Below, piece after piece: positions 27,781-39,700 of a stretch of 64,000 nt of DNA. The stretch's first letter is position 1. Each line of letters starts with the position of its first letter. Source of the stretch: Romanomermis culicivorax (Eukaryota; Nematoda; Enoplea; Mermithida; Mermithidae); assembly GCA_963922205.1 (NCBI GenBank), contig CAWUHX010000312.1, positions 310,001-374,000 of the forward strand, written 5' to 3'. The translations under genes were made by a program, and so were the position numbers. The notes below the pieces were generated by a model. It worked only from the letters and a program-made list of their open reading frames with translations, had not been told where the DNA came from and ran no database searches.

Positions 27781-30700
27781 TTACAGTACTCCGGATAACT
27801 CGTGAACAGATAACCGATCCAAAGTAAACCATTTGGCTCCATTACGGGAAAACATACCCTCATGCCTTGTGTACAAGACTTCTACTTTAGAAATGTTCTT
27901 GATAGGCCATTCAGTGGTTATTACTGTCGATTGTTGTGAATTGAGTTTTGATTTTGCATTTTTACTATAAAATATGAATATGACGTCATGAACATGTATG
28001 GTTACTGTAGCAAAAATGAATCACATTTTTAAAGAATAATGGCAAGCTTACTCATGGAACTCGCATTGAGTTGACCAACCAATACTTTGATCGTAAAGCT
28101 TGATTTTTATTGAACCTTTGACCTTTTTTGTAGAAATGAGCATTCCGACCAGATGCTGCCTTCCTGAATATAAAACAAATATTGGTCAAAAGTAGTGATC
28201 TAGAATTCATGCACATAACAGTCAACCCTCAACCCGCAACGATGTAACATAGGAATATGTTATAGAATAGCAGATAAGTTGGCCGCATCTAAACATGTCC
28301 GAGCCAGGGCATGTGAGGGGTACAAAGTTGTCCTCAACCAGGTATTCCTTAGGGTAGGCTGGGAGTCAGGCCCCCAATGGTTATATGTAGGAAGGAGGTG
28401 CCTTCAACTATGGCTTATGATACACATTCTACTTACATAATGTGCAAGTAGATGTTAGATACCACATGCTAGCTAAACTAATACTACCATCTTTTTCCAC
28501 CAATTTCCTTTACAGTAAAACCTTTTCAAAACCACCAATTTTCTATAACATTAGTTCATATGCATCACTTAATAATTCTGTTTATATTTGTAAAAATTAC
28601 ATAACCATTCGTTTTACCTTTTTGTCATCGAGTGGCCTTTTTGGGCCAAGTTGTTCAGTGCGTTTTTGGACCATATTTATGATCAGCATATAAAGTTTAT
28701 TGTGAACAGCGTCCCACCTGGCCGACTTTGCACCAATTCGCCCATTATTCACCTGTATGTTTTTTATTCTATTTCTTTTATTCTATTTATTAACTTGCCT
28801 TATCCATTGATTATTATTATTAGTTACCCACGTACACATCAAATTCCGAATCTCCTAAATTCTGTAATGACCAGATTTGTGAAGCACTATCGGTTGGAAT
28901 GATGTACAATGGAACCGGTAGAACGGGGCAATTCAATAATACGATTATGGCGGGTTCGACGATCGCTTGATTCGTCGATTATACAAAATGAACGTCACGT
29001 TCGCTTGCAAATATAATAATAACCCCTCGGTTTAATTGCTTTCGAAAAATGGCTGCTTGCAAATATAAACGAAACGATCGTGAAAAAACCCAAAAACTCG
29101 AAACTATGAATAATATCAAAATCATGCTTTGTTTCTCTTTAAATACAGCGTTTTTGGCCACTCCCTGGGCGTTGCGGGAGGTCGTGCTTCTGTCCATCTT
29201 CTTCTGCCAATCGTCGCTTCCTGCTTTACTATTCCTGCTTATTTAGTCACCCCCTTCAATGCTTTTCTAGTATGGCATGCTTTTCGTGTCTTGCTTGCTT
29301 CCTACGGTGGGCTTAGCCACACCTTTGTGCTTCTGTGCACGCTTCCTGTATCTGTTTCTCTGAATACACATGTTTTGTGGGACCGTCGCTACCATTGCAC
29401 TTGAGACTACTGTCTGGCGGGGCTTTTACTTTTTTTACTGTGTGCAGGTGTTGTTTACGATTTTTAGGGGGGATTACGGTAGCCGTGGAATGTGTGGTTT
29501 AGTGTAGGTTCTAGGGGACCAGCTGCTGTTTGTGCAAATTAATTGGGACATCTTAATTGGGCTACCGGGGTGTGAACGGATCAAAATAAAGTACTTCACG
29601 TAATTTTACAGGAATGTTTGGGTGTGAATCCCAGACACCCTTGAGACGATAAATTATGAAAATGAAACAATGTTTAATAAATGACTATCAAATACAGTAT
29701 GCTATATATTTACAGTACTGCATTAGCAGGTATATTACATTTCCCTCCTTCCGGAGTTGAACGTCCTCGTTCAAGGGTGTCGAGGGTGAGGAGGGGTGGG
29801 GGCAGTTTCGAAAGCTGCTTCTCGAGGATAGAAAGGGGTTGTCTCATTTACATGTACCGTAAATGTGATATTCTTATGGGGGTGTTTGACTGTAACATTT
29901 GGGTACATGAAATTTGTAACTGTATAGGGCCCGTTTTGGCGAGGGAGGAATTTGGGAGTCAGCCCTTGTTTATACGAATGATTTTTGTAGAGAATAAGAT
30001 CACCTGCCTCGTAATGGATGTTCTGAGCATGCTTGTTATACTGAAGAGTATTGTGATCTTGGGCTTTTTGTAAACTTTTCTGCACCGTTGAGAGTGCTTC
30101 TGTAAAGTGAGATTTTACACGAAGGGCATAATCCTCTAAATCAACCATGTAGGACGTGAGGAAAAAATTTAAGGCTGCGTCTGATGGAAGATTAGCCTGT
30201 CTACCATGGAGTAATTCAAATGGGGGATACGAAGTGCTATCATTCTTATGAATGTTAATCGAAAAAACGGCATAGGGTAGATCCAATCAGTGTGATTTGA
30301 ATTGATGTACATGCCGATACGGGTGGCTAGAGTCTGGTTGCAACGCTCAACTTCCCCATTGGCAATGGGATGGTATGGAGTAGTATGAATTTTCTGAGTG
30401 TTGCATAAGCTAGTGACCCTTGAAAAGAGATCAGATACAAAATCAGAGCCACGATCACAATGGATGATTTTTGGGGAGCCATGACGGCAAACAATTTTGG
30501 TTACGAATAATTTGGCGATGGTGGCTGCAGTGATATCAGGGGTCGGAAATGCCTCCACATACTTGAAGAAATAATCGATGAAAACGACAATGAATCCGTT
30601 GCCGTCTTCAGTGAGGGGTAACGGTCTCATGCAATCAACACTGACTCTATCAAATGGGCCAGTCGGCTGAATTGGTACCAGATTCCCATGTATTTTGTGC

Positions 30701-36700: not shown

Positions 36701-39700
36701 GTATCTTTCATGCCTTGGAGTGCCATGAATTGTTCTAATCGTTTATTCCATTCACCAAAATGTTGGGTCACGCCACCCATGAATACTGTAGGTTTCGCGT
36801 AGAAATTATTTGCCATGTTATTACGAATGTTTGCTGTTCTTAGATCGTCTATTAGGGTGGGGTTTACTGTATTCTGGTTCAATTGTATGCGTAGAGTACG
36901 AAAATGTCCAGAAAATAAATCATTTATCTGTTCTCTAACGATTTCTCCTAAATGATCTTGCATTTGGTGGATCATTCTTGGTTTACGCTGGGATTTCTGC
37001 TTCAATGCTTCGATTTTTGCTTCACGCTGTATTTGTACAAATGTATCGCTTAATGTTTCGTTGGAGGGGATTTCCAGTTTGCCTTTTACGAATATCTGTC
37101 TTACTGTAGGAAATGATTACTACTGTATTATCTAATGCTTCGGGATGCCTGGATAAGAGTACACCTAATTGGGGCAGGGAGTTCCAGTGGTTAACGGTAT
37201 GGTACAGTCACCAAAATATGTAACGACCAGATTTGTGAAGCACTTTACTTTATCCTGAATGGACAGTCTGAACGATGTACAACGGAACAGGTAGAACGGG
37301 GCGATTCAATAATACGATTATGGCGGGTTCGAAGATCGCTTGATTCGTCGATTTTACAAAATGAACATCGCGTTCGCTTGCAAATATAATAATAACGCCT
37401 CGGTTTAATTGCTTTCGAAAAATGGCTGCTTGCTAATATAAACGAAACGATCGCGAAAAAACCCAAAAACTCGAAACTATGAATAATATCAAAATCACGC
37501 TTTGCTTCTCTTTAAATACGGCGTTTTTGGCCACTCCCTGGGCGTTGCGGGAGGTCGTGCTTCTGTCCATCTTCTTCCGCCAATTGTCGCTTCCTGCTTT
37601 ACTATTCCTGCTTATTTAGTCACGCCCTTCAATGCTTTTCTAGTACGGCATGCTTTTGGTGTCTTGCTTGCTTCCTACGGTATGCTTAGCCACACCTTTG
37701 TGCTTCTGTGCATGCTTCCTGTATCTGTTTCTCTGAATACACATGTTTTGTGGGACTGTCGCTACCGTTGCACTTGAGACTACTGTCTGGCGGGGCTTTT
37801 ACTAATTTTACTGTGTGCAGGTGTTGTTTACGATTTTTAGGGGGGATTACGGTAGCCCTGGAATGTGTGGTTCAGTGTAGGTTCTAGGGGACCAACTGCC
37901 GTTTTGCAAATTAATTGGGGCATCTTAATTGGGCTACCGGGGTGTGAACAGATCAAAATAAAGTACTTCACGTAATTTTACAGGAATGTTTGGGTGTGAA
38001 TCCCAGACACCCTTGAGACGATAAATTATGAAAATGAAATAATGTTTAATAAATGACTATCACATACAGTATGCTATATATTTACAGTACTGCGTTAGCA
38101 GGTACGTTACAATTCCAACATTTACTGTATTACTTCCTTTACTTATTTCTTCATGTTTATCCTCAACAAATTTCGCCTATTTCACATACAAGTGATACAC
38201 ATCTTACAATATGATCACGTTCCATGATGCACAAGTACAATCAATGCGTACCTTGCAGTATGATCATGTGATATGATGTGCAGGTACATTTCGTGTACTA
38301 CATTGTCCCAGAAAGTTCTAGAACTTTCCACAATATTGTATAATATTCTTTTACATTCTACAATATTCTAGAACATTTCATGATTTTCCCTGATAGTATA
38401 CAAGCTGTGTTGTTTTGTATATTCATTCATTTATTTATTGTACTATTTAGTACATCGATATTGTATGTTGTGTTAGTTAGCCTTATTAAAGTAGCTATTC
38501 ACCAGCTAGTATACCAGTTGAATATTTACTATTTATTCCAAGGCTAATCTATTTTCAACTTAGTCCAGACTTTATTCAACACGCAACAGTTTATAACGTC
38601 AGAAAAGTATAAAGTCGTCTGTAACTAGGGTATATTTGGTAGGATGGGAGTCTGAGGAGGTATGGTTAAGGATGGAGATGACCTGTAATTATTAAGCATA
38701 TGTAGGAGTTGTGTTCAACTATGATTTATGACGTCAGTAATGTATAAATTTGTCCTCAACTAGGGTATCCTTAGGTGAGGCTTGGAGTCTGAAAAGCAAT
38801 AGTCAAGGATGCATGGTGCACAATGGTAAAGTGTAGGCAGGAGTTGTTCCCAACAATGGCTTATGTTTATGTTATGCAGGCCAGGGATCCCAGCTCATTA
38901 GTAGCATTTGATGAGAAAAAGTTGCTGTGTATAAATACCAGGTTCAACAAAAATCAGATTTTAATGCCAGAAATGCAGATTGTGTCTCAAATGTCAAACC
39001 ATGTCTCAAATCACAATTTTAAACGGATTTTAACGCGATCTATCGATTGATGCCCCATTTTTGGTGCACAATTGAGTGTTCAAGCTTAAGCTTTAGCATA
39101 AGCTCAGGCTAGAAATATGCAAAAAAATTTACACGGCATCAGTACTCAATTTCCTGTTTTTAGATCCTTTTTTAAGCTTATTTGGCCAATATCTAGATTT
39201 TGGATGAAATTCATTCTGCCCACCCATATGAGTTAATCTGCACATCAACTATTTCATATCTACAACTGAAATCTCCGAAAATAAAATACAAAATTTCTAC
39301 CACAAAATTCCACCGAATCCTCATCATTTTTGTACGCCAACGTATTGAAATAAATTCCGCGGGTCAAAATTTTAGGCGGATTATTTGTCGAAAAGAAAAA
39401 ATCCAGTCCCGGTTCGGGGCAATGGTCGACGGTTGCACATTTTTGGAAACATCGACCCGCTTTCCATTGGTCGGCATTCGGACATTCGAATGTTTGAAAT
39501 TCACAGACGTCGTTTGATGATGACGTGACGTTGCTACTGATAATTCGGCTTTTTGATAGTGATCTTTTTAGAATATCGACCAAAATAATAGGTGCAAGCC
39601 GATGGCTACAAGATGCTTTCTTGAAACTGCCTGAAAAGAAAGCATAGGGATCATTGGTCGATCAGATGACGTTTGGGTCAAAAACATCAAATTAACTTGG

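Follow-up and report, generated by a model that had tools for sequence, protein, structure and literature searches.

Within a 64,000-nucleotide stretch of the genome of the mermithid nematode Romanomermis culicivorax (contig CAWUHX010000312.1, positions 310,001 to 374,000; hereafter the window) lies a Ty3/gypsy-type provirus, at window positions 28863..38111 on the minus strand, in which env stands between gag and pol: the order is gag, env, protease (PR), reverse transcriptase (RT), RNase H (RH) and integrase (IN). We propose that open copies of its lineage encode a single polyprotein of approximately 2400 to 3100 residues, Gag-signal peptide-Env-membrane span-PR-RT-RH-IN, which is probably threaded through a membrane. 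The gene order and the single frame, together with signal-peptide-like and span-like segments on either side of Env, recur across env families; env is under purifying selection, and insertions are recent. The membrane-threaded mechanism is likely, judging from the sequences. An initial annotation of the window had recognized the order gag-env-pol; a fused single frame, and a whole lineage rather than one odd element, go beyond that reading.

Loci and matches in the 359-Mb source genome are labeled L or C below, and database proteins P. A search of this genome with a 466-residue env piece (34672-33272 of the window) gave 91 scored matches out of 3787 candidates, the window included, which is a lower bound. 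The matches other than the query's own are 90-91% identical to it, and 44 of the 91 lie in an open frame of at least 2400 amino acids. All seven other copies that were fetched around env have the gag zinc knuckles, env, protease and RT in the same linear order; both this set and the 20 loci of further families described below were found through env. In L003, L004, L006 and L007, one frame contains no stop over 4338 bp, whereas the other two frames contain 70 to 75 stops each, so that chance is excluded as the source of the single open frame. The gag-env-pol frame has 23 stops in L002 and one stop each in L005 and L008. Thus, the gene order in the initial annotation, which is also the domain order of the window copy, was borne out, but its view of gag, env and pol as separate genes was not, because the stop-free copies have all three in one frame.

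Insertions in the window family are recent. Only the two end pieces were examined for each of 20 further copies (ranks 9-28 of the window-family env matches). Fifteen fit one span of 2407-2409 amino acids that begins at the gag ATG and ends at a stop codon immediately ahead of the 3′ long terminal repeat (LTR), and the frame is also open throughout in 13 of the 15. The remaining five have shorter spans; one of them, C384, reaches its 3′ LTR about 2 kb early and has no RT-RH match in the downstream piece. Full-length LTR alignments of 18 copies show 97.8-100% identity between the two repeats, and a further two copies could be aligned in part; the four-base target duplications, read by eye, agree in 15 of the 20 copies and are ambiguous or incomplete in the other five.

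The layout extends well beyond the window family. When the database env P0006 was used as the query in the same genome, 81 matches were scored of 3636 candidates, and 20 of these were picked for differing place and frame length and grouped with L003 at 70% env identity. The 20 loci and L003 represent 12 env families, of which the other 11 are 41-55% identical to the window family. Env is followed by a protease in 20 of 20 loci, with a membrane-span-like segment between. The piece includes RT in 17 loci, and 17 have no stop over 4.5 kb; CCHC knuckles occur upstream in frame in 15. For L068 and L065, which lack knuckles in the piece, Gag and its knuckles were located further upstream in the same frame. 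Comparison with other copies, which the initial annotation had proposed as a check, therefore upheld its order in both sets. Database proteins show all or part of the same arrangement: P0028 (2490 amino acids) is Gag-Env-PR-RT-RH-IN, P0010 is Env-PR-RT-RH-IN, P0001 is Env-PR-RT-RH, P0002 is Gag-Env-PR and P0003 is Gag-Env, with its Env assigned by profile and its Gag by fold. P0005 is an env fragment filed under a gammaproteobacterial metagenome-assembled genome on a 1383-bp contig, and is probably animal DNA in the bin.

Some families carry additional protease domains. L068 and L069 (C188 and C52) have a further protease domain, bearing a DTGA of its own, between Gag and Env, giving the layout Gag-PR1-Env-PR2-RT in one frame, with Gag seen for L068 only. 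In L065, L077 and other copies with open frames of 3018-3116 amino acids, two protease-like domains follow Env, DTGC and then DTGA, and an Arg/Ser-rich stretch separates the two. In a search with RT, in which 122 matches were scored of 8183 candidates, approximately 50 of the 122 lie in frames of at least 3018 amino acids.

By profile and structure model, the env product (33272..35218, minus strand, in shifted frames in the window copy) belongs to the class III fusogens of the Monjiviricetes/glycoprotein B (gB) type, the type known from herpesviruses and rhabdoviruses, and membrane fusion itself is predicted. Its 466-residue piece matches PF24664 (Monjiviricetes_fusion) with an E value of 5.5e-17 over residues 88-253, and the env proteins tested score 43.8-66.9 bits against a curated cut-off of 27 bits. 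A class III, gB-like fold was found on the structure model of P0003; the fold of P0006 has a mean predicted local distance difference test (pLDDT) score of 54. A PDB search with the env profile gave three matches, the gB of Kaposi's sarcoma-associated herpesvirus (E 0.0094) and two glutamate receptors (E 0.43 and 0.66), while a PDB sequence search with one env gave no match, and a scan of IMG/VR with the env alignment gave 229 pattern matches with no relative among them. The profile match and the class III-type model rule out a capsid or protease extension, which the initial annotation had named as the identity that would undo its suggestion of an envelope; the profile and structure predictions it called for point instead to a membrane glycoprotein. 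The ectodomain keeps 16 cysteines over 25 aligned rows.

Env is under purifying selection, like pol. As estimated from Nei-Gojobori counts, the ratio of nonsynonymous to synonymous substitution rates (dN/dS) in six pairs of window-family copies is 0.03-0.11 for env, from 4-11 nonsynonymous and 21-40 synonymous changes, and 0.02-0.06 for PR-RT. Comparison of the window copy with L003 and L006 gave 0.09 for env (its C-terminal piece), 0.13-0.16 for gag, 0.12 for PR and 0.10-0.11 for RT. Further env pairs gave 0.09 (L064-L066, dS 0.78), 0.09 (only four changes), 0.11, 0.12 and 0.16. The stretch upstream of env is less constrained, with dN/dS of 0.07-1.13.

The initial annotation ascribed a signal peptide and a C-terminal membrane span to the env product, and both predicted segments recur across families. 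In the window copy, the predicted internal signal peptide, MFCIFLCIIIPTSCSA before QFQICG, lies at the Gag-Env junction (35171..35218, minus strand). We searched 11 family representatives (L075 was left out) for the best 14-residue core in a preset stretch. All 11 have a hydrophobic core directly before the conserved mature start, with a mean hydropathy of 1.98-2.81 over the 14 residues. An in-frame Met is found at the core in four families and at −39 in two; five have none from −40 to +5. The predicted span of the window copy, GPLQIIINLAVITVVIAGVFYSF... (33518..33598, minus strand), lies near the env C-terminus, with a tail between it and the protease, and has a counterpart in P0004. In the elements measured, the distance from the end of the span-like segment to the protease match is 65-104 residues, with the exception of P0011 (38 residues) and of L065 and L077 (about 390 residues, with another protease-like domain between). 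With a signal peptide before the ectodomain and a span after it, Gag and Pol would lie together on one face of the membrane, opposite the ectodomain.

One can envision the following sequence of events. The ribosome would make Gag in the cytosol, and the internal signal peptide would then send the remainder of the chain to the endoplasmic reticulum, where signal peptidase would release Gag and the ectodomain would be made in the lumen. The membrane span would bring the chain back to the cytosol, so that the protease and polymerase would be made as a cytosolic extension of Env, and the protease would later separate itself, Pol and Gag. A single threaded polyprotein would thereby deliver Env and Pol together to the membrane at which Gag assembles, with no need for splicing or frameshifting. 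The element could move between cells as an enveloped particle.

Several observations weigh against this interpretation. No furin-type site was found in the L003 env, and no 2A (NPGP) motif was found between Gag and Env or between Env and Pol in four copies or five database proteins. For want of the NPGP motif, 2A ribosome skipping at either junction was rejected; with neither a furin-type site nor 2A, separation of Gag from Env would depend on signal peptidase alone. Six of 11 families have acceptor-like sites before the signal peptide, and separate products could arise by splicing or trans-splicing. Of the 653 positions of the PF24664 profile, the match spans only a central part (about 255-470), and the P0003 model has a mean pLDDT of 49, with higher values in the env core, and low TM-scores. 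The protease match of P0028 and the Gag and PR matches of P0002 are under the Pfam cut-offs, and P0003 stops after Env, with no pol in the protein. Two very young env pairs have dN/dS of 0.46 and 0.26, on eight and six changes, and three between-family env pairs are saturated. Lastly, a shorter RT tree places P0028 with env-less rows, apart from the other env-bearing elements.

One alternative hypothesis is that the order and frame are as described but that Gag, Env and Pol come from different mRNAs, through cis-splicing or spliced-leader trans-splicing, and that the shared frame is a by-product of compact packing. The acceptor-like sites in the six families favor this hypothesis; in the window family, all four copies examined have TTT(N)CAG sites at corresponding positions, which in L003 lie approximately 140 nt before the signal peptide. 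Furthermore, the available part of a report on Cer1 of C. elegans describes a spliced product from a polyprotein gene (PMC10309623), and the TTAGGC repeats of the genome suggest a nematode host. However, no MAGGTRAG, AGGTRAG or GGTRAGT donor is present in any of the four copies, and 7 of 11 families lack an in-frame Met at the signal peptide. In addition, the Gag-Env junction is kept open in P0002, P0003, P0028 and 17 stop-free loci, which splicing would not require. We regard separate mRNAs as unlikely, although they deserve to be taken seriously.

A second alternative is that Env no longer serves for entry and is only a membrane anchor or decoy that takes Gag-Pol to membranes inside the cell. 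P0008 (1903 amino acids), a Gag-PR-RT protein that groups with the env-bearing elements in the RT clade described below, has no ectodomain, yet hydrophobic stretches can be seen by eye at the places expected for the signal peptide and the span; the hydropathy scan did not flag them. Env loss is a possible explanation of P0008. Against the anchor or decoy function, the ectodomain retains its 16 cysteines and is about as constrained as PR-RT, and we consider such a function improbable. That env was inserted by an isolated accident into one gag-pol copy, making the window copy a chimera, might be suggested by the broken state of that copy and by the existence of P0008, but it is refuted, unless the other families are assembly artefacts, by a layout common to 7 of 7 fetched copies, 12 families and several database proteins, by the single RT clade and by an env dN/dS of about 0.1.

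Returning to the threaded polyprotein, we lean somewhat toward a broader version of it, in which the lineage, present in several unrelated sequence collections, has its polymerase born as the cytoplasmic tail of Env, with one signal peptide and one protease replacing splicing, frameshifting and separate packaging signals. In the family with a second protease on the Gag side (Gag-PR-Env-PR-RT), the two sides of the membrane step would each seem to call for a protease.

The origin of the layout was addressed with an RT-RH tree built from 64 of 113 usable rows, which are database proteins and the window family, with no named Metaviridae reference set among them. P0028, P0001, P0010, P0011, P0008 and the window family form one clade (97/92), which thus includes all four env-bearing elements of the tree (P0028, P0001, P0010 and the window family) and which the tree places within a set of gag-pol-like database proteins whose RT/RNase H domains are of the Ty3 type. 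P0011 has a span-like segment before PR, and its sequence is cut upstream. A group test on the tree counted two changes because P0008 and P0011 carried labels of their own. Trees of env and of partial RT, with near-copies dropped, concur on two main clades within the genome; env therefore seems to have travelled with pol. A single capture of env is likely, but the position of P0028 in the shorter RT tree keeps it from being proved.

To look for env-less relatives, we took up eight of the 122 RT matches, selected according to the length of their frames; some of the eight were included because they seemed too short for env. Env lies directly upstream in four, and a full env lies further up in C6. 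The match in C17 belongs to a copy with an internal deletion, in which the C-terminal part of env survives and is 98.9% identical to the L065 env. Six matches were thus resolved (all but C400 and C36), and in this small sample no clean gag-PR junction was found in the genome; a gag joined directly to pol was the finding that the initial annotation had named as fatal to its order. The colinear copies, the 20 further loci and this follow-up rule out env as an independent insertion. C17 carries three RT matches about 12.18 kb apart (G000:C17:1929564, 1941744 and 1953923) in the same 1883-residue frame. Because the first is the gag-env deletion copy of the L065 family and the spacing is even, they look like a tandem array.

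The window copy itself has intact boundaries, as initially reported, and a decayed interior. Its parts lie on the minus strand. The 5′ LTR (37219..38111, 893 bp) and 3′ LTR (28863..29739, 877 bp) are 95.5% identical over 843 columns, and both begin with TGTAA and finish with TTACA. The flanks carry the target-site duplication ATTC at 28859..28862 (left) and 38112..38115 (right). Just inside the 5′ LTR is a primer-binding-site-like stretch, TGGTGAC... (37196..37213), and a similar stretch follows the 5′ LTR in other copies. The polypurine tract GGAAGGAGGGAAA (29740..29752) adjoins the 3′ LTR; an identical tract precedes the 3′ LTR in most other copies examined. The gag part (35533..37131) is capsid-like with CCHC zinc knuckles and matches zf-CCHC (E 6e-4) and Retrotrans_gag (E 5e-5), both slightly under the Pfam cut-off. 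The aspartic protease (DTG; 32671..33274; PF13975, E 1.1e-8) is followed by RT and RNase H (30964..32670; PF00078, PF17919, PF17917) and by the integrase, with its H2C2 zinc and rve core (29771..30939; PF17921, E 7e-22; PF00665, E 5e-8). In-frame stops interrupt gag and also occur between PR and RT and within RT; env is split over frames into the pieces 35356-34925, 34844-34548 and 34672-33272; and the C-terminal part of the integrase is in another frame. It is because of this decay that the window copy seems to have separate genes and that its env and pol open reading frames (ORFs) overlap at 33398/33272, whereas env and PR share one frame in the stop-free copies. Accordingly, the ORF ranges initially listed as genes are in the right order but are not intact genes.

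Elsewhere in the window, the plus-strand ORFs at 10573-11871 and 13481-13984 are presumably LINE-like reverse transcriptases, judging from their translations. Two similar minus-strand ORFs, 24087-24743 and 45601-46077, flank the element, one on each side, and we take them to be pancreatic-lipase-like. An exon at 62581-63126 (minus strand) presumably belongs to an NAD kinase (GGDGTFLLAA). In the genome at large, (TTAGGN)5 arrays, mostly TTAGGC in the places listed, are frequent inside contigs (13142 forward and 14211 reverse; controls 1 and 41). A COX1-like gene of mitochondrial type, with 11 in-frame TGA codons that read as Trp, lies in a 1-Mb contig (G000:C117:992573-993922) and is either a nuclear copy or joined mitochondrial DNA. 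Such a use of TGA and the TTAGGC arrays together make a nematode host likely.

The existence of a stable, diversified and recently active lineage with Env inside the polyprotein indicates that the env-after-pol order is not a constraint. The layout implies another way to set the Gag:Env:Pol ratio and to package Pol, and it offers an example of a class III fusogen joined in frame to a gypsy-type polyprotein. It also provides a directly testable case of envelope gene capture and retention.

In known retroviruses, env follows pol. The lineage has the LTRs, purine tract, short target duplication and PR-RT-RH-IN order of Metaviridae, and a primer-binding-site-like stretch was seen. However, the available part of the family profile of the International Committee on Taxonomy of Viruses places Env, where present, downstream of integrase (PMC7879559), in agreement with what the initial annotation had said of known env-bearing gypsy elements; this position was not found in the lineage, and an Env inside a gypsy-type polyprotein is an order absent from that part of the profile. 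Errantiviruses are likewise Ty3/gypsy-type LTR elements with a PR-RT-RH-IN pol and a captured viral fusion protein, but their Env is a separate gene downstream of integrase in the portions of the sources at hand (PMC7879559; PMC12992720), not in frame between Gag and PR as it is here. In addition, errantivirus Env is of the baculovirus F type in Drosophila, whereas the lineage has a PF24664/class III Env.

Atlas virus of hookworm (Belpaoviridae), according to the accessible text, also has one uninterrupted polyprotein, of 2828 residues, that holds Gag, Pol and Env (PMC9094657), but in the order Gag-Pol-Env, with a BEL/Pao polymerase and a class II, phlebovirus-like C-terminal Env; neither that order nor a class II Env was found in the lineage. 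Anakin, a mosquito element, resembles ours in that an LTR element has captured a Jingchuvirales-type (chuvirus) glycoprotein, but it has a BEL/Pao polymerase, and three other BEL/Pao elements in the portion consulted have an env-like protein downstream of pol (PMC7642597). The presence of a class III env in a gypsy element has a precedent, since the part seen of a 2026 paper mentions type III glycoproteins shared between gypsy and BEL elements, with gypsy examples in mosquitoes (PMC13172572). In the insect gypsy elements of this kind (the Chary and Hayashi set), that part names GAG, POL and ENV, in that order, as having ORFs of their own. A 2023 survey, in the sections available, reports no clear Gypsy capture of Jingchuvirales glycoproteins but does report arthropod endogenous viral elements near Gypsy fragments (PMC10084718). 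Those elements share with ours a related fusogen near Gypsy sequences; here, in contrast, the glycoprotein is an integral, selected part of the element. We did not find a gag-env-pol LTR layout in the literature searched, whose coverage ends short of the 2025 eLife survey of envelope-carrying gypsy elements by Chary and Hayashi, which may already note it. The structural polyproteins of flaviviruses and alphaviruses run, within one chain, from a cytosolic capsid through an internal signal sequence to the envelope proteins. By analogy, the mechanism proposed here would work in the same way, although those are unrelated RNA viruses with no reverse transcriptase.

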